Position numbers and translations under genes: made by a program. Below, in pieces: positions 53,373 to 64,000 of a DNA stretch of 64,000 nucleotides (within the stretch, counting starts at the first letter, position 1; each line of letters begins with the position of its first letter). Source of the stretch: Botrytis cinerea B05.10 (lineage: Eukaryota; Ascomycota; Leotiomycetes; Helotiales; Sclerotiniaceae); contig NC_037314.1 in NCBI RefSeq assembly GCF_000143535.2, positions 1,922,001 to 1,986,000 of the forward strand, read 5' to 3'. The notes under the pieces were generated by a model that was given only the letters and a program-made list of their open reading frames with translations, had not been told where the DNA came from and ran no database searches.

Positions 53373-55153
53373 ATGGGAGGAAATACGGATTATAGCGATT
53401 GGTCGCATGAGAATTTGATTAAGAGGGTTACTCAATTAGAGAAGGAGCTTAAAAGCAATACCAAAAGGTACTGAATAGCCTTCTCCCAATCCCCAGAAAT
53501 CACTATTGATCAAACCCCAGCGCAATCCCTCTCCCCAAACGAAATCTCCAGAAACCCCGCCGCGAACGCGACTTCGACCCCTCCAAATACAACACTCGAC
53601 TCATAGCTCTCAAACTTGCGTATTTGGGAAAACGCTACAATGGATTCGAACATCATGCACACCCAACACCTTTAACTACCATTGAAGAAGAATTGTGGCA
53701 GGCGTTGAATAAGGCTCGTCTTATATTTCCTCAGGGGGTCAATCCTCTGGCGCCGGGAGAAGTCAATTGGGAGGGGTGCGAATATTCGAAATGTGGAAGG
53801 ACTGATAAGGGTGTTAGTGCTTTTGGCCAAGTTATTGGGATTAGAGTGAGGAGTAATCGACCATTGCCTAAATCGAAAGTGAAGCCCACACAAGAAGAAT
53901 TTGTAGAGGGAGAAGCTGGTGCAGAGGAGGATATTTATAACACGTATCCGAGGGAAAACGGTATCGAAGTCACATCTGCGCCGCTATCTCCATCCGCAGG
54001 CGTCCCAGGACCACAAGGTTCCGATAGTGGAACGTTCAGGTTGTCGGATCCAGATATTCAGGAGAGTCTCGATTTTGATCATATTACTGATGAGATACCG
54101 TATCCACAAGTTCTCAATCGTCTTCTGCCACCCGATATTCGTATACTGGCATGGTGTCCGTCACCACCTATCGATTTTTCTGCACGCTTCTCCTGCCGTG
54201 AACGTCGCTATCGATATTTCTTTACTCAGCCTGCGTTTTCTCCTATTCCTTCTCAGTTGGAACATGGTACATCGGCTAGTAAGATGAAAGATGGCTGGTT
54301 GGATATCGATGCCATGAGAGAAGCGGCAAGGTTGTATGAGGGGTTGCATGATTTTAGGAACTTCTGCAAAGTGGATCCGGGAAAACAAATCACCAATTTT
54401 GAAAGGAGGATCTTTTATGCAAATATCGAGGAGGTGGATGATTACACAAGTTCGCTGGCTTATGTGAATGGTGGTTCATTCCTTGATGAATCAGTTCGTT
54501 CCAAAGCGGATGGTGAGATTAAGGCTCCTAAAATCTATACATTCGACCTCCATGGATCAGCATTTCTTTGGCATCAAGTACGTCACATGGTTGCGATCTT
54601 ATTTCTGGTAGGACAGGGTCTAGAGAAACCTTCTGTGGTAACTGAATTATTGGATGTGGAAAAGAATCCAGGAAGACCCACTTATGAAATGGCTACCGAT
54701 ACTCCTCTTGTTCTCTGGGACTGTATCTTTCCTCACGAAGACGACGAGTCTCGAACCGACGCTTTGGATTGGCATTACATAGGCGACTCGCCCGGGTTCT
54801 CTGAGGGTAAATTCGGACAAGCTGGTCTGATGGATGATTTATGGAAAGTTTGGAGAGAACGTAAGATTGACTCGATTCTCGCGGGTGAATTGATGGGGAT
54901 TGTTAGTCGTCAAGGAGTAGATGCGAGTGAGTTAAGCGGCGGGAAAGGGGGAAAGGGAAGGAGTCAAAAGGTTTTTGATGGCAGCGATAGTCCGAGATTT
55001 GCGGGGAAGTATACAAAGGTTATGGATAAGACGAGGATGGAAACGGTGGAGGTGGTTAATGAGAGGTATGTGATTAGGAAGGGGTTGGTGGCTAAGGATC
55101 AGAAAAAGGGGTTTAAGAGGATGGAGAAGGGAGGAGAAGAAAAGAAAGACTGA
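53373..55153 (+). CDS. DEG1: tRNA pseudouridine(38/39) synthase, Deg1/Pus3
   Basis: Two exons, 53373-53467 and 53521-55153, giving 575 residues. The 53-nt intron begins GTACTG and ends CCCAG and splits a Ser codon. Exon 1 gives a short coiled coil (ENLIKRVTQLEKELKS). The catalytic domain opens RLIALKLAYLGKRYNGF and has the TruA-family motif GCEYSKCGRTDKGVSAFGQ with the catalytic Asp. FSARFSCRERRYRYFF, LHDFRNFCKVDP and FLWHQVRHMVAILFLVGQGLE follow, as in Pus3. The Lys-rich C-terminus is fungal-specific. The enzyme converts U38/U39 in the tRNA anticodon stem to pseudouridine. An in-frame ATG at 53244 would add 43 Arg-rich residues; the shorter form is preferred because homologues begin with this SDWSHE-like segment. 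Confidence 0.93.
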
Positions 55154-55649: not shown

Positions 55650-57548
55650 TCATTCTCTCGCCTTCACAGTAACCATCAAATCCGGTTTTTCCCACAATAT
55701 GAACACTTTCTGCTCGTTCCAATTGCGACTCTCCTCACACAAATTGATATCGAAGTGCCACAGGATCCGCGCGAGAATGGCTCGCATCTCTGCCATTGCG
55801 AGATGCTAGTTGATAGTTAGTCATTACTAATGTCAAATATATGGACACGGATGCACTCCACGTACCTGTCCTAAGCAATTTCTAGGTCCAACGGAGAATG
55901 GTTGTACTACACCGCGCTTGTCCGACGCAAAACGCGAATTGGAAATATTGTCATCCAGCCATCTTTCGGGTAAAAATCGATCTGGAAGTGCGAAATTGGC
56001 TGCAGAGTGGTAGGCACTCCATTGGTGTACACCGACTGATACCTAAACATCTAGTCAGCTTTTGTCTAGTTATACAAGCGCAGATTTACTCACATCTTCA
56101 GGGATAAAGTAATCGTTAATGATGACGCCGCCAGGTTGAGTTCTTCGAGGTAGTACTCCTGGAACTGGCGGGTAGATACGAAAGGCTTCTTGTAGACAGG
56201 CATTTAGATATCGCAGATTAGCGAGCTTTACAAATGTCATATCGGCTGACTCTGCAAACGCTGTACGAATTTCTTGGACGAGAATTGTCATACAAGAAGG
56301 ATTTTTGAGGAGATGAAAGAGAGCACCACTAAGTAGCGTAGCTGTAGTTTCGCTCCCTGCTATAATGAGCGTGCCAGTAGTTTTCATGATCTCAGCTCTC
56401 GTCATCCCTTTCTCGTCGTTATGACGAAGAATATAACTGTTTCGCAGGAATTAGTACTCTTGATATCATTTGAGCGTACGGAGCTACGAACCTCATAAAA
56501 TCGCGTCTGTCAGTAACGGTATCTAGTCGACGAGCTGTCTTATCTTGCGTATATTGTATGTGTCTCTGTCTCGCCTTCTGAAGTCCAGGAAACAGCGCTA
56601 GCATAGCCAAAATCGGCATTCCAACCAGCGGGTACGCACGCATGACGCGGAAGAGGCGTGCAAACTTGAGACCCTTGAAGATATTGGCAATCCAAGAATT
56701 GTATTCTTGGGTACGAAGGGCATCGAAAGATTCGGCAAAACATAGGTCGCCGATCAAATCGAATGTTGTGAAGTTGAAGAATCGGACAATGTTCACTTTG
56801 CCGTTTGAGGGACTGTCGATTTGCTCGTAGAGCTTCTGGATGAGAAGGTCAAAGTACACATTCATTAGAGGCTCTTGCTCACGAAGAGAAGCTTCTGAGA
56901 AGGCATGGCTTAGCGCTCGTCTGATCCGAGTGTGGTCTACATCGTTGGATGCTGTTTTAATCAGTGTAAATCCTCCGTTTGAGCATGATATGAGGTATCA
57001 ACTTACAGATGATATCTGCGACTCCGTCATTTCCGGAGAAATATATCTCTTTATCTTTTGGGATTGGCTTTTTCCCATGGCGTTGGCCATAGATCTCTAG
57101 ATAGAAGAGTAAGGACTAGTGCTCACTCAAAACGTTTGTTAGACCATACCTTGCCAAGCTTCGGAGTTGTTGAAAGACACTGTTGCAGGAGATATTCGAA
57201 CAGTGTTTCCGTAAAGATCATGCAGTTTCTTCACGTTTGCCGCCCCATCACCGGTCCAAATCTCTGTGAGTCCAATTTGGTTAGCAAGGCTATTGAAGGG
57301 TTTGGATAGTCTATAATGTAATTGATAATGAGAGACGTTCACTTGCCCCAGTAGGTTGGAAAGTAAAAGGCACCACGTAATCTAGGTCCAGGGATTTTGG
57401 CAAGAGGATGAAATGTGATGTTGTATAGACCGATAATTAAACAAGAAATTGCATACTTGGAAATAATTAGCCTAGTATATCAATGCCAGGGTTGACTTAC
57501 AAGTAAACAAAAGAATAGCAGGACATTGGAAAATTCTAAAAGAGCCAT
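55650..57548 (-). CDS. cytochrome P450 monooxygenase, CYP65-like
   Basis: Eight exons: 57501-57548, 57343-57455, 57150-57310, 57007-57096, 56492-56951, 56094-56436, 55866-56042 and 55650-55805, giving 515 residues. Every intron has GT/AG ends and consistent phase. The N-terminal ~25 residues form a membrane anchor, followed by the FHPLAKIPGPRLRG hinge. The I-helix oxygen-binding motif is AGSETT (~315-320), ExxR is EAFR (~372-375), and the haem loop is FSVGPRNCLG with the axial Cys at ~461. WTGDGAANVKKLHDLYG and DHTRIRRALSHAFSEASLR are typical of fungal CYP65/isotrichodermin C-15 hydroxylase-type enzymes. It is ER-bound and needs CPR. As first of five collinear minus-strand genes ending in PaxB/PaxC homologues, it may oxidise the cluster product. 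That is inference; it is not a PaxP/PaxQ-type P450. Confidence 0.92.
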
Positions 57549-58145: not shown

Positions 58146-59519
58146 TCAAACAAGCTCCCCTCCATCACCATGGTTATTTTTCTTGATGTTGGGTTTCACA
58201 TGATTCTCTGTCTTTCGCCCGGCACTTTGGAGCGAAACTTCCTGGAGGGGCAGGGTCATATCGTCAAGGCTCGCCACTTTGAAATGGCCCTTGGATGAAT
58301 GGGAGTTGCCATATGATTCGGTTCTATTGGTGCGTGACAGAAGAGCTCGTATACGGCTGTATGAACCGCGTGTTTTCTCTCTCAAAAGTTTATGTAAAGG
58401 TAGGAGCGCTGGCAAACTTGCGGCTATTAGTCCGATATTCTGTTCAAGTCTGCGAAGTTGATTAGCATGCTTCGACAAGCTTGTGCAGCGGCTAGACTTA
58501 CACTGTCCATATCTGTAGGACTAGCAGTGACCCTGATCATTGCATTAGTCGCCTAGGTGTATTTTCTCGGCCTTGTGAATGACTTACATGTTGTGTCGAG
58601 AAAACTTGTTACAGACGCATATAAGTACAGGCGAGCGATAGAACAGGCCGTTGTACTAAACATCCTAAGCTTCACGTACAAGTGGGTAGAGCGATTGAGA
58701 TAACTTACAACAAGCCCATGGCTACAAGGCCACAAATGGCTATTTTCTGTCGCACACTAATTTGAATATTCCACAAGACAATTATTGGGAGCATTGTACA
58801 CGTAAAATCAGTTACGATAGAGAAGACTGTGGTTCGTTAGCCATTCGCTCTGCGCCTACAGATGATTAGTGTGAATAAATACCTCCTTGTAAATACGACT
58901 GTACTTCCAGAACCTTGTGTGGCCAGCATTTTCCTTGAATAGTGTAGTAGTTCCACCCTGCTTCGAAAGGTGTACATCTGGCAGCCACGACAATGAACCC
59001 CATGAGGTTTATCGCGATTAGAGCACCTATCATCGCCCACATGAATCTAATCAAGCTTTTGCTGTTTGTTATTCGGACGATCATAAAGCAAATTGAGACC
59101 TTGGTAAAGGTCGTTGCAATGATGAAAGGAAGTTGTGCCAGGGTACTCCATTTAGACGCATTGATTTCTCCTTGTATTCCGAGGTAGTATGAATGTCTAC
59201 CGCCACCACTATGTATATAGTTGAGATTGAAAGCGTTGCAGATAGTGGCAGCGATCTTCCATGTAAGGATTAGTTTTAATGCATTTTGTAAGATGAATGA
59301 AAGATATAAGAAGGGATGGAGGAGACATACAGTAGCGGCAATGATCGAATAATCATCCCATCCCATTGAGCGAACCACGAATAGTCGCACACTCAGGCGA
59401 AGACAAAGAATCACAACGACAATAGTGAACGTAGTAACGATAACAATAAGCATCCTAGTGCCATGATTCTGGTCCCCATCAGCCGGGGGTGAGCTCTTCG
59501 CACTTGGATAGCTACTCAT
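58146..59519 (-). CDS. seven-helix fungal rhodopsin-domain (Pth11-like) integral membrane protein
   Basis: Six exons: 59331-59519, 58883-59255, 58709-58826, 58588-58655, 58502-58532 and 58146-58449, giving 360 residues. All five introns are GT/AG and phase-consistent; the fifth exon is only 31 nt. Seven hydrophobic helices are visible, beginning with MLIVIVTTFTIVVVILCLRL. The GWDDYSIIAA motif after helix 1, GGGRH in the following loop, and the CTPFEAGWN and GKCWPH segments are hallmarks of the large fungal rhodopsin-domain family (PF20684), often annotated as Pth11-like or as SAT4-type cluster proteins. The C-terminal ~95 residues are a polar cytoplasmic tail. Such genes are common inside fungal secondary-metabolite clusters, where a transport or sensing role is suspected but unproven. 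Confidence 0.88.
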
Positions 59520-60439
59520 TGCTGTTGGCCTAGTCGACGAGGATAATGAATGGAAGGAAACTCAGCAAACGCGATTGTAAAGTGTAGAGATTATTTCTTA
59601 GATCGAAACGAAATATTGAACTCTCTACAACACTTGGAATCTCGGGGTCTATGACTTGTAACTATGAGCTCGCCTTTTATATTGACATCCAAAAGTCCAT
59701 AAATAATTTTTGAGGGGTTCCATTTCACAACCACACTTCTAGCACAGACTTTCTCCATGGAAACGTCTGCTGTTAGGATTTCATGCACCTGTATGGCGAG
59801 TGAGATGTCTGGGTGCGGTAGCAATCCTCAAACCCATCACGACGGCGTACAATTGTCTGCCCTCGCATACGTGATCAAGAATTCATGAAGGATTTTCAGA
59901 TTCTCTCATTGGGTAGCAGATTATTGAGCCTCCGGCTTGCACACCGACGCTTGTATTTATAACTCGTATAGATTTGCAGGGTGGGTGGACAATAACATGC
60001 AGGAAACTGTTCGAGCATAAGGCTTATTGAATTTCAAGAGCTGTGCCATTGTTTTCATCAGCACATTGGTCCGTATGGTGGTGTCTGGTGTGTATCGAAT
60101 TTTTGGAAATGTTTGCCTAGGTAGGTTGCATTGTAGTCACATACTGCTGAAGACATTGAACATTTGTGGGAGTAATGCAACCCCCTCTTAATTGATAAGC
60201 ACTAACTACACGGTTTTCTTATAACTACACCAGGAGTCTTTCCGCTTTTTCCGAGACACAACACTACCACACCAATCACTTCATCCCACCAGTCAGCAAA
60301 TGATTTCATAGCGCCGCGACCAATCAAAATAAAGACACCCACGGAGCACACCAACAACAATCGACATGCAAAGAAGTATAGCCTTGCCATGAAGAATTTT
60401 GCTATAGGGCACAAGGGGCGCAGTGGTTGCACTCTACCA
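59520..60439. other. 920 bp intergenic
   Basis: No gene is supportable. A 76-codon minus frame at 60202-60432 includes a hydrophobic stretch and could in principle be an alternative 3' exon of the next gene, but no splice of acceptable length was found. Confidence 0.45.
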
Positions 60440-61186
60440 TTACATGATCCACAACATGAAAATGCTTGCCACAGAACATGTGGAAATCTGCAACCATGAA
60501 GATTGGGCTTGGATTAGGGTCGCAGAGCCAGTGTATGGCGTCAGAGAGCCACTCATAGTCGGGACCGGGCCTTCTGAAACTGGTCGAGTACCTAGCCAAG
60601 ATGTAGCATTATGGTGAGTCGCCACAGTAGTAATTGCTGCGGACGTTGTGATGACCGGGTACGTGGTTGGGGTTTGCGCTGCGAAAGAGTTGAGTGGTCC
60701 TAGGTTTTGAATTCCTAGTCCTGATGCCTTGGATGCTAGCTGCTGAATCTCCTCGCGCTCAATGGAGTAGTAAGATTCAATGGCGCTCTGTTTGTCTGCG
60801 GCGAGTGTCGTCAACCACTTTGGGAAATCGCTTCCCTGTCCAATATTTTCGATGAACGAAAGATACGCATCTGGACTTGCAGTTATGACAGAGACGACAG
60901 TTGCAGGAATGGCCGATGCAAGTAAGGCTAGAGCCGATGGTTCAGGGTTGAAGATTACGGAATCGAGTGAGATGAACGATTCCAGGGAAGATAAAGCGGC
61001 TGGACCGGTTGCCGTGATGCTGCCTTCAGAAGCCCTAGCATAAATGTCAGTAAGCTGCTCTACCGCATGTCAAATCAAGTGAAGAACATACAAGGAAGAT
61101 AATACCGATAGCGGAATTGCATTTTGTGCTGCAACAATGCCTAGCATGACATGGAAAATGTAGGATTTTGGGGCAACGGAATGCAT
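60440..61186 (-). CDS. unrecognised secreted, possibly GPI-anchored protein
   Basis: Two exons, 61092-61186 and 60440-61034, giving 229 residues. The 57-nt intron begins GTATGT and ends GCTAG and splits a Leu codon. The N-terminus reads as a signal peptide with likely cleavage after GIVAAQ (~residue 21). The mature part is Ala/Ser/Thr-rich with few charges, includes DFPKWLTTLAADKQSA, then a Thr/Ser/Pro-rich stretch (~150-200) with an N-glycosylation sequon (HNAT). A short hydrophobic end (VASIFMLWIM) may be a GPI signal or simply the C-terminus. No cysteine framework or enzyme motif is seen. It resembles small fungal cell-wall or secreted proteins in composition only. It lies between the membrane protein and the terpene cyclase gene, with the same orientation. 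Confidence 0.7.
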
Positions 61187-61535: not shown

Positions 61536-62331
61536 TTACTGTTTCTTTGGGTGCAGAGAATTGCGACTTTCTAACTTCGCTATGTACCAAAATATGAATG
61601 GATACGCCAACTCGGCAGTCTCTGGTGCTATGAACAAAAATCTTGCAAGAGGAGTGTACACGTAACCGTAGTTGGCTGGGTAGTTATACGCACGCCAGTG
61701 GAAAACCGCAGTTGCACATAGTGTACCCAAAAAACGGCACCACCTTGAAATTTATCGTTAGTATTATGAGAACATTGCAAGCAAGAAACATTTGTGGAGA
61801 TACGTACCATATAGCAATGGAATGTCCTCTGGTACTTTCTCTTGACACGAGCTGCGCAATCGCACTCCAACTAACGATGACCTGGCACGTATACCCACTC
61901 CAGAAGCTTGCTTGTGTGAAGTCTGTGAAGAGCTCTGCGAATGTCCACTGTGCGCCCAGCATCATGAGGCTTCCTACCAGAACTATCATGCCCAAGTTCT
62001 TCTGCACAATTGGAGCATGTCTCCATTCCCGAGGCCCAAACTTAATAGTCGCATTGACTAGGAGCAGGTCGATCAGGAAGTATGGAAGGAACGTAATGAA
62101 TTCGGCCATTCCAGGTGGATGAATAATGCCATATATCAACTCCCAAGCTATGTTTGCACAAAGGGACAATATCGGCATGCCGTACGACTGATCTTTAGAA
62201 GATCGGCGTATGTATAGAACATACGCTACCATCCACAAAACGCCAGAGCCTATCGTAAGACCATCTTGAATCCATAGATATGTTTCCGATGGTTGATTAG
62301 ACGCATCAATGTCAGTGAGTGGAAGATGCAT
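61536..62331 (-). CDS. paxB: PaxB/AtmB-type integral membrane terpene cyclase
   Basis: Two exons, 61808-62331 and 61536-61743, giving 243 residues, the usual PaxB length. The 64-nt intron starts GTACGT, holds a perfect ACTAAC branch site and ends TTCAAG. Without this splice the reading frame shifts before the conserved tail. The start is the ATG at 62331; the open frame upstream only reaches a TTG. About seven transmembrane helices are present. Family landmarks are the YGMPILSLCANIAWELIYG block with its acidic residue, the GAQWTFAE region and the C-terminal YPFIFWYIAK. The Pyr4/PaxB family cyclises epoxidised prenyl chains at the membrane by protonation. Next to a PaxC homologue it most likely closes the rings of an indole-diterpene. 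A meroterpenoid cyclase is the main alternative. Confidence 0.9.
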
Positions 62332-62775
62332 GTTTGTGGAAAATATAAAGACCAAAACAATAGTTAGATTTATTTAAGTAGCCAGTGTTAATTCCAGTTG
62401 CGATGCTATTGATTGCATATGGATCAAAAGCAGGGAAATTCCGATTGTTCAAGAAAGAGGGACAGTTTGTGAGTTACTTTGTTAGACATGTCTACAAGTA
62501 GATTGGGGAGAAGAATGAATCTTCGGTTGCTCGCATGAGACCATGTACTGGGCCATATTACCACATCATGCTATGTACTCAAAGGGGTGCTGATTATTGG
62601 CGGTTACATATAGACTTCACAATTTTGGTAGCAGTGCATATCGTATCTCAAGGGTTCTCTTTAGGTGTAAAATATTACTTTCAAAAAAATTATCTCACTT
62701 CTTATGTGATCAATACTCTAGATGATAATCAAAAGCTAACTCAATGCATTCAGAAGCATCGCAAAAGTTTGAATG
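62332..62775. promoter_or_regulatory. promoter of terpene cyclase gene, 3' flank of paxC-like gene
   Basis: A 444-bp spacer. The plus-strand 94-codon frame here is not credible. Confidence 0.4.
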
Positions 62776-63901
62776 CTACACAAAAATCCTCTTCGCGAAC
62801 CCAAAATAGCCGGTTTTAGATTTGCCGACTTTCTCAGCTACAGGGACAGATTGGGAAACTAGCATCCCTTCCTTGCGGCCCCATACCGAAGCAAAGATTG
62901 AATTGTTTTCCCTCAATATTGCTAACTCACCGAGGCACAAGCCTCGAACCTCATCTTCCTGTAGTATCATGGCCGCATTGTGTACATGTTCCTTGAATTC
63001 TCCCCCCTGGCGTGCCGACAATGCCTTTTCAACTGCAGTTTTGATTCGTGGTGATGAATAGAGGGCAACTAAAATTGGGAAAGAGTACTCCCCATTGGCT
63101 AAATCTTCAGCCAAGGCTCCTTTAGCCGCAACCACGTCGGAAGAGAACACGTTTTTGCAATCGTTTTGCAGTTGACAGTACCATCTACGTGGAATTGTTA
63201 GCCGGTACTAGCATCATTAAAGATTCCGACTGACCCAAAATCACTCATCAGTTGATCCTTCTCGTGACTTCCTGTGGCAAGTTGTCCAATGAGGCGGAAC
63301 AAAGCTCCAGTCTTGAGAGAGGCACACTCTCGATACCTGGTCAAGGCTGCAGCTCTGTCTAGCCCCTTATCGAATCCATCCCTGCGCCAGACAAGAGATT
63401 CATCCTGCCCTATTTTAATTGTAAGCTGCGAGGCTCGCTTACAGAGTGGATTTCGCTTGGAAGCCAACCTTTGTGTATCTGGGTCAGATTGTCTAAGATT
63501 GCAGGAATTGCTGATGGCTTTGCAGATCTGCATTTCTCAATGACTTCGAATATTCGCAAGTAAGCTCGGTTGATTGTTTCTGCGGTACCATAAATTCTGT
63601 GAGCGGCTATGCGGCCCTTTCTGAGATGACTGTTATCCGCAACATCATCCACGAGTATTGCACCGAAATGGATGGCATCCATGATTTCGAGAATGAGTTG
63701 GTACCACTTCGGGTCATTATTTTCAAGGCCAGGATCGAGTATTTGGAGAATCTTGGTAAAGTGGCCAGGACCGTATACATCGAGAATGTACTCATATGGA
63801 CACAATATTCCATTAGGTACAGCCTCGTTCGAAATCGATCTAAGATCTGGTGAACTGCTAGTTGACCACCATTGTGGCTGTTTCATCCAGTCAAAAAACA
63901 T
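62776..63901 (-). CDS. paxC: PaxC-type indole-diterpene prenyltransferase (GGPPS-like fold)
   Basis: Three exons: 63469-63901, 63235-63409 and 62776-63184, giving 338 residues. The introns (59 and 50 nt) begin GTTGGC and GTCAGT and end ATAG and GTAG; phases close. The all-helical trans-prenyltransferase fold is shown by the first Asp-rich motif VDDVAD (~84-89) and LRKGRIAAHRIYG. The segments MDAIHFGAILVDD, ETINRAYLRIFEV, IHKGQDESLVWRRDG, WYCQLQNDCKN and WGRKE differ from true GGPP synthases (LIDDIEDSS, GQGLDIYWRD, FQIRDD) and match the PaxC/AtmC/LtmC group. The second Asp-rich motif is degenerate (QNDCKN), also as in that group. Family reaction: transfer of geranylgeranyl to indole-3-glycerol phosphate. 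An in-frame TAG lies upstream, so the start is the ATG at 63901 or 63886 unless an exon lies outside the window. Confidence 0.88.
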
Positions 63902-64000
63902 CTTGCATGTAGAACTTATCAAAAGGTTTCGCAAGAATACAGAAGCAATTATGGACTAAGATGCCTCCACATAATATATCATTTTAATCATGTTAAGAAC
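63902..64000. promoter_or_regulatory. paxC-like upstream region, cut by window edge
   Basis: Only 99 bases of the 5' flank are present. A gene on either side cannot be assessed. Confidence 0.4.

Follow-up and report, generated by a model that had tools for sequence, protein, structure and literature searches.

The window analysed here, a stretch of 64,000 nucleotides from the genome of the grey-mould fungus Botrytis cinerea B05.10 (contig C5, positions 1922001-1986000; assembly of 42.6 Mb in 18 contigs), carries close to its right-hand edge two genes that lie 444 bp apart on the minus strand. The first, Bcpax1 (Bcin05g05670; 62776..63901), encodes a PaxC-type prenyltransferase of 338 amino acids. 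Its spliced model comprises three exons (63901-63469, 63409-63235, and 63184-62776, with the start ATG at 63901) separated by introns of 59 and 50 bp, and its coding frame was open throughout. Full-length, 100% identity of the translated model to the database protein 'Bcpax1 [Botrytis cinerea B05.10]' confirmed the splice sites. A Pfam scan matched the polyprenyl-synthetase domain (PF00348), and the protein carries the stretches VDDVAD, GQDESLVWRRDG, and WYCQLQNDCKN. In the alignment, the first Asp-rich motif read DDVAD, a regular DDxxD, and the second read NDCKN, which conforms to the NDxxN pattern of PaxC; this pattern is said to distinguish PaxC from GGPP synthases (PMC3760044; this and the other sources cited below were available in part). 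A predicted structure (pLDDT 84.5) led, in a fold search, to GGPP-synthase-type prenyltransferases.

The second gene (61536..62331) encodes a transmembrane terpene cyclase of 243 amino acids. Its two exons (62331-61808 and 61743-61536) have open frames, the open reading frame that holds exon 1 matched the Pyr4-TMTC family (PF25129; E 9.9e-60), and the WExxY motif reads WELIY, in agreement with WExx(Y/F). These gene models, together with the identity of Bcpax1, bore out a preliminary description of this DNA, which had recognized a three-exon prenyltransferase with the above motifs and, at the same spacing and on the same strand, a 243-residue membrane cyclase of the Pyr4/PaxB type. Since two full-length members of conserved families adjoin on one strand, the two genes are no product of chance open frames. 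Among the 17 cyclase relatives listed, none was named PaxB or AtmB and two had automatically been named 'paspaline synthase'. The Lophiotrema cyclase (66% identical) was predicted to be all-helical (pLDDT 89.8). A fold search of this model against the PDB gave nothing at E ≤ 0.001, and KDEL-receptor chains scored best (5.7e-3). When a cyclase relative was compared with PDB sequences, nothing matched up to E 1, and an NCBIfam scan of four proteins yielded none above cut-off. A second Pyr4-type cyclase gene occurs elsewhere in the genome (C2:635387-636152; L021, L023), where the best frame match crosses three stops, maybe reflecting an intron or damage; no obvious polyketide synthase was seen near it in a listing of open reading frames of C2:618001-648000.

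On extension of the contig beyond position 64000, where the preliminary description had expected a GGPP synthase and a PaxM-type epoxidase, neither was found. Instead, a five-exon gene for an FMO-type flavin monooxygenase of 557 amino acids (PF00743) lies there on the plus strand (64339-66248 in numbering extended past the window; L006:2339-4248). All of its exons (64339-64384, 64446-65158, 65224-65583, 65634-65940, and 66001-66248) are beyond the window edge, its frame is open, and its model was 100% identical to a database protein of 557 amino acids (P0125). By its Pfam family, the flavoenzyme adjoining Bcpax1 is thus an FMO and not a PaxM-type enzyme. Its start lies 437 bp from that of Bcpax1, and the intergenic region (63902-64338, of which 63902..64000 falls within the window) would serve as a promoter common to Bcpax1 and the divergent FMO gene. 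A short-chain dehydrogenase gene adjoins the FMO gene (66432-67530 in extended numbering; L006:4432-5530; minus strand), before an AAA ATPase gene, and may encode a tailoring enzyme or be a bystander.

Further into the window, a cytochrome P450 of approximately 502 amino acids is encoded on the minus strand (55650..57548; PF00067, E 6.9e-71). Its model, in which the N-terminal exons are approximate, was open throughout; it is a candidate tailoring enzyme, position being the one feature that would assign it to the cluster. Between the P450 and the cyclase (58146-61183) sit two further minus-strand genes, one for an integral membrane protein with a fungal rhodopsin domain (58146..59520; PF20684 on the 58866-59561 frame), and one for a small protein rich in Ser, Thr, and Ala and hydrophobic at its ends (60440..61183) that appeared GPI-anchor-like by eye and whose main frame gave no Pfam match. 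A tRNA pseudouridine synthase gene (53510..55153, plus strand; PF01416) forms the left, housekeeping border of the locus. According to Pfam, the neighbours on this side are the tRNA pseudouridine synthase, a RasGEF, a short-chain dehydrogenase, and a ribose-phosphate pyrophosphokinase; those on the right are the short-chain dehydrogenase and AAA ATPase, followed by an SPB4-type helicase, PIG-H, a Nop-domain protein, a V-ATPase subunit, and ribosomal protein S15.

A genome-wide search for polyprenyl synthetases, in which all five candidates were scored, yielded four genes: one each on contigs C15, C2, and C14 (the last with two exons), and Bcpax1. Bcpax1 was the sole polyprenyl synthetase on contig C5, and no dedicated GGPP synthase was found in the cluster by this search. 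Because it grouped with the GGPP-synthase halves of Aspergillus proteins in a quick tree, the gene on contig C14 was taken as the one GGPP-synthase-type gene of the genome, unlinked to the locus. The same number of polyprenyl-synthetase genes (Bcerg20, Bccoq1, Bcin14g01170, and Bcpax1) is given in PMC11173184, and these were matched to the four loci by chromosome number. For FAD_binding_3, the family of PaxM, 19 of 87 candidates were scored and at least 20 matches were obtained; among those listed, the only one on contig C5 lay approximately 880 kb from the locus. With this share of candidates scored, an unlinked PaxM-type epoxidase may be encoded elsewhere in the genome.

The neighbourhood from approximately 31 to 97 kb (extended numbering; 66 kb) contained 103 open reading frames of at least 100 amino acids in six frames, of which 37, picked by size and place (10 + 8 + 9 + 10), were scanned against Pfam. 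Among these 37, the scans recognized no FAD_binding_3 domain, no polyprenyl synthetase besides Bcpax1, and neither a polyketide synthase nor any other gene that would make an acceptor. A regular-expression search of all 103 for FAD-enzyme motifs gave no match, but as it overlooked even the FMO, in which an intron interrupts the motif, it carries no weight. On the frames scanned, no GGPP synthase and no recognized PaxM-type gene accompany Bcpax1 in this neighbourhood, which counts against the paxilline-type core of the preliminary description, a reading that had been tied to an epoxidase and a GGPP synthase within approximately 30 kb.

Phylogenetic analysis of the prenyltransferase drew on 107 database matches, 68 of which had at least 250 residues. 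The quick tree contained 65 rows; a careful tree of 54 rows was built without the FPP synthase (whose branch in the quick tree was extremely long), the fungus's own GGPP-synthase exon, fragments, and eight further rows. Both trees split PaxC-like enzymes from GGPP synthases. By motif and tree position, Bcpax1 is therefore a PaxC-type prenyltransferase outside the ordinary GGPP synthases, as had been proposed. Within the PaxC-like group, Bcpax1 fell outside the clade of named indole-diterpene enzymes. The quick tree supported the Bcpax1 clade at 93 and its PaxC-like counterpart at 91, both values unstarred, the latter clade including the row named AtmC (P0033), which is absent from the careful tree. 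In the careful tree, the Bcpax1 clade comprised 13 rows, among them the Mycoleptodiscus enzyme (99/98), and its sister clade comprised 38 rows, including NodC, TerC, and AceC (98/99). Since P0014 (Geopyxis) was unplaced in the careful tree, the 14 rows labelled as Bcpax1 type (A) needed two changes and stood together on one side of a branch in only 30% of the bootstrap trees. The closest relative of Bcpax1 was the enzyme of Oidiodendron (98/97), likewise a leotiomycete; this placement fits vertical descent with losses. In a separate observation, 12 Aspergillus relatives (P0015-P0021, P0023-P0025, P0027, and P0033) were long proteins of 552-589 amino acids, and the sequences of P0020, P0027, and P0033 resembled PaxC in the front half and GGPP synthase in the back half; these long proteins may be real fusions or merged models of adjoining genes.

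Residues around the substrate pocket were compared in 67 rows, after 39 matches shorter than 250 residues and P0107 were left out. Three positions separated 22 rows of the Bcpax1 type (16 by tree, P0014, and five fragments by motif) from 45 of the other type (44 by tree, one by motif), with counts that are partly circular for the six motif-placed rows: Ala (22/22) vs. Leu (45/45) four residues before DDxxD, Ile/Val (22/22) vs. Ala/Ser (45/45) in the middle of TxN, and His (22/22) vs. Leu/Ile (45/45) two residues before GQ. These positions are close to the part of GGPP synthases that determines chain length. Chain length is not readable from this pocket, because bulk shifts from helix to helix and the changes are opposite in direction; the small residues (G/A) that precede DDVAD would even admit a C20 chain. 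The idea that the Ala-to-Ile change (TAN vs. TIN) sits a single turn of helix above the floor that limits the chain, and so shortens the pocket, was dropped, since alignment to human GGPP synthase gave another register, in which that enzyme itself has Ile at this place, and the differences between the clades run in opposite directions.

The prenyltransferase, cyclase, and FMO recur together in other fungi. Among the 7995 candidates to which scoring was limited, 24 FMO relatives were listed. Sixteen of them were 41-100% identical over the part that matched, and those that followed were 25-29% identical. Twelve fungi with a Bcpax1-type enzyme were named (10 placed by tree, Bimuria by motif, and Geopyxis by motif but unplaced). 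In the matches listed, the FMO was seen in eight of these (Botrytis, Lindgomyces, Lophiotrema, Lentithecium, Amniculicola, Mycoleptodiscus, Bimuria, and Agyrium) and not in the other four (Alectoria, Elaphomyces, Oidiodendron, and Geopyxis). Prenyltransferase and FMO lay on longest contigs of equal size in all seven fungi that could be compared, and the cyclase likewise in five of the seven; for Agyrium no cyclase match was listed, and the B. cinerea cyclase entered this comparison as a different gene model of 298 residues on another contig. The equal contig sizes point, as indirect evidence, to linkage of prenyltransferase and FMO. In Lophiotrema, the FMO and cyclase tags are two apart (652707 and 652709). 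Four fungi had an FMO relative and no listed prenyltransferase (B. aclada, Geoglossum, Trichoglossum, and Melanomma), and three had the cyclase alone (Trematosphaeria, Viridothelium, and Rutstroemia). The B. aclada FMO relative (P0126; 385 amino acids, 89% identity across 69% of the query), listed without a prenyltransferase relative, is possibly a remnant of the module.

The preliminary description had regarded the cluster as little described, in what looked like a leotiomycete, and its product as unknown. The host is indeed one, B. cinerea, and the observation itself was confirmed, but the gene was already known: PAX1 was termed orthologous to PaxC of Penicillium paxilli in 2011 (PMC3158057), an orthology repeated in PMC11173184. 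The product is given as 'unknown indole-diterpene' in PMC9920419, in keeping with the description, and no compound from the locus was found in the available parts of the literature, including the three papers matched by locus tag, all of them cited in this paragraph. Among the Botrytis species compared in PMC6417074, Bcpax1 occurred only in B. cinerea; a row 'indole-diterpene, polyprenyl synthetase' in PMC10971195, which in the part available does not name the gene, reads intact for B05.10 and '2 trunc + 1 del' for B. fabae. Both bcpax1 and BCIN_05g05660 were markedly upregulated in a bcaba1234 strain, showed no significant change in a bcaba3 strain, and were both labelled GGPPS (PMC12804166); to judge from the gene numbers, the latter is probably the cyclase of this locus.

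We consider it moderately probable that prenyltransferase, cyclase, and FMO form the core of a pathway to an indole terpenoid made without PaxM-type epoxidation, with a C15 chain more likely than C20. In such a pathway, Bcpax1 would join a polyprenyl diphosphate, most likely FPP (C15) from primary metabolism, to indole-3-glycerol phosphate, yielding a 3-prenylindole. The cyclase would protonate the terminal alkene directly, since no PaxM-type epoxidase accompanies it, and so form drimane-like rings on the indole. The FMO would then oxidize the product, probably at its indole part, and further tailoring may fall to the nearby P450. Indole as acceptor is suggested by membership of the PaxC family, which is defined by transfer of GGPP to indole-3-glycerol phosphate. 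According to PMC11109268, indole sesquiterpenoids as well as diterpenoids require PaxC-like transferases, and 131 Pyr4-type clusters contain a PaxC-like gene. A farnesyl substrate and direct protonation would fit a locus without linked GGPP synthase and PaxM epoxidase. Besides gene content, relatives in Mycoleptodiscus argue for C15 over C20, because the same three enzymes occur in the genus of the mycoleptodiscins, which are indole-sesquiterpenoids, a connection made by genus.

A true indole-diterpene pathway, in which GGPP would come from the unlinked GGPP synthase and the epoxide from an unlinked FAD_binding_3 enzyme or the linked FMO, is unlikely, though it has several observations on its side. 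Membership of Bcpax1 in the PaxC family agrees with it, as do the label in the literature (PMC3158057, PMC9920419), the G/A before DDVAD that would admit C20, and the FAD_binding_3 matches elsewhere in the genome. Of the preliminary indole-diterpene assignment, the PaxC-type prenyltransferase and the Pyr4/PaxB-type cyclase stood, and the expected equivalents of paxG and paxM did not. A dedicated GGPP synthase is missing from the locus, though paxG, paxC, paxM, and paxB are reported to be necessary and sufficient for paspaline in P. paxilli (PMC3760044), and the recurring partner, in relatives that include the Mycoleptodiscus set, is an FMO rather than PaxM. Use of a non-indole aromatic acceptor, leading to a non-indole meroterpenoid, is quite improbable; conserved positions do differ from the indole-diterpene type, such as the His before GQ, but Bcpax1 retains the NDxxN mark of PaxC (PMC3760044) and no acceptor-making gene was recognized on the 37 nearby frames. 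That the locus is a relic of a formerly larger cluster, now without product, would suit its patchiness in Botrytis (PMC6417074, PMC10971195) but is most improbable, given that the frames of Bcpax1, cyclase, FMO, and P450 are all open and transcripts rise in the bcaba1234 strain (PMC12804166).

If the epoxide-free indole-terpenoid core is the correct reading, Bcpax1 may have been misfiled since 2011. It is conceivable, if somewhat short of probable, that it represents a scattered and largely unstudied class of prenyltransferase, membrane cyclase, and FMO sets that make indole-sesquiterpenoids without an epoxide, with a dedicated FMO branch acting on the cyclized indole. Bcpax1 is among the uncharacterized key genes of secondary metabolism in a major crop pathogen. 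The label that it bears in catalogues steers searches toward paxilline-like C28 compounds. If the product were a C23 indole-sesquiterpenoid, LC-MS would have to look for other masses, and any reconstruction of the pathway should include the FMO. The Bcpax1 clade may also show how PaxC-type enzymes set chain length.

Among known systems, the paxilline core resembles the Botrytis locus in gene structure, with paxC encoding 317 amino acids in three exons and paxB 243 amino acids in two (PMC3760044 Table 1). The Botrytis counterparts, likewise neighbours, encode 338 amino acids in three exons and 243 amino acids in two, but no equivalent of paxG or paxM was found and an FMO gene adjoins instead. 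GGPP synthases (human 2q80 and yeast 2dh4) share with Bcpax1 a sequence match, the fold, and the first Asp-rich motif, but have DDxxD/N as second motif where Bcpax1 has NDCKN, and Bcpax1 lies outside their branch. NodC, TerC, and AtmC, which belong to the nodulisporic acid, terpendole, and aflatrem pathways, form with Bcpax1 a superclade apart from GGPP synthases and share NDCKN and 43-46% identity with it; they differ in belonging to the sister clade and in their pocket-region residues.

Mycoleptodiscins were obtained from Mycoleptodiscus sp. F0194 (PMC8746379). A chemoenzymatic synthesis of mycoleptodiscin A used the drimane albicanol as starting material (PMC12282579), and a title among the references of PMC12787746 places this compound beside 'simplified indolosesquiterpenoids'. 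No gene cluster for mycoleptodiscin or fungal farnesylindole biosynthesis was assigned among the literature matches listed, and no paper tying the DH-2022a deposit to mycoleptodiscins was found, so that the link is one of genus. Mycoleptodiscus sp. DH-2022a has all three proteins, a prenyl transferase (P0013, 55%), a terpene cyclase (P0112, 62%), and a flavin-binding monooxygenase (P0130, 48%), and in the careful tree its prenyltransferase, too, belonged to the Bcpax1 clade.
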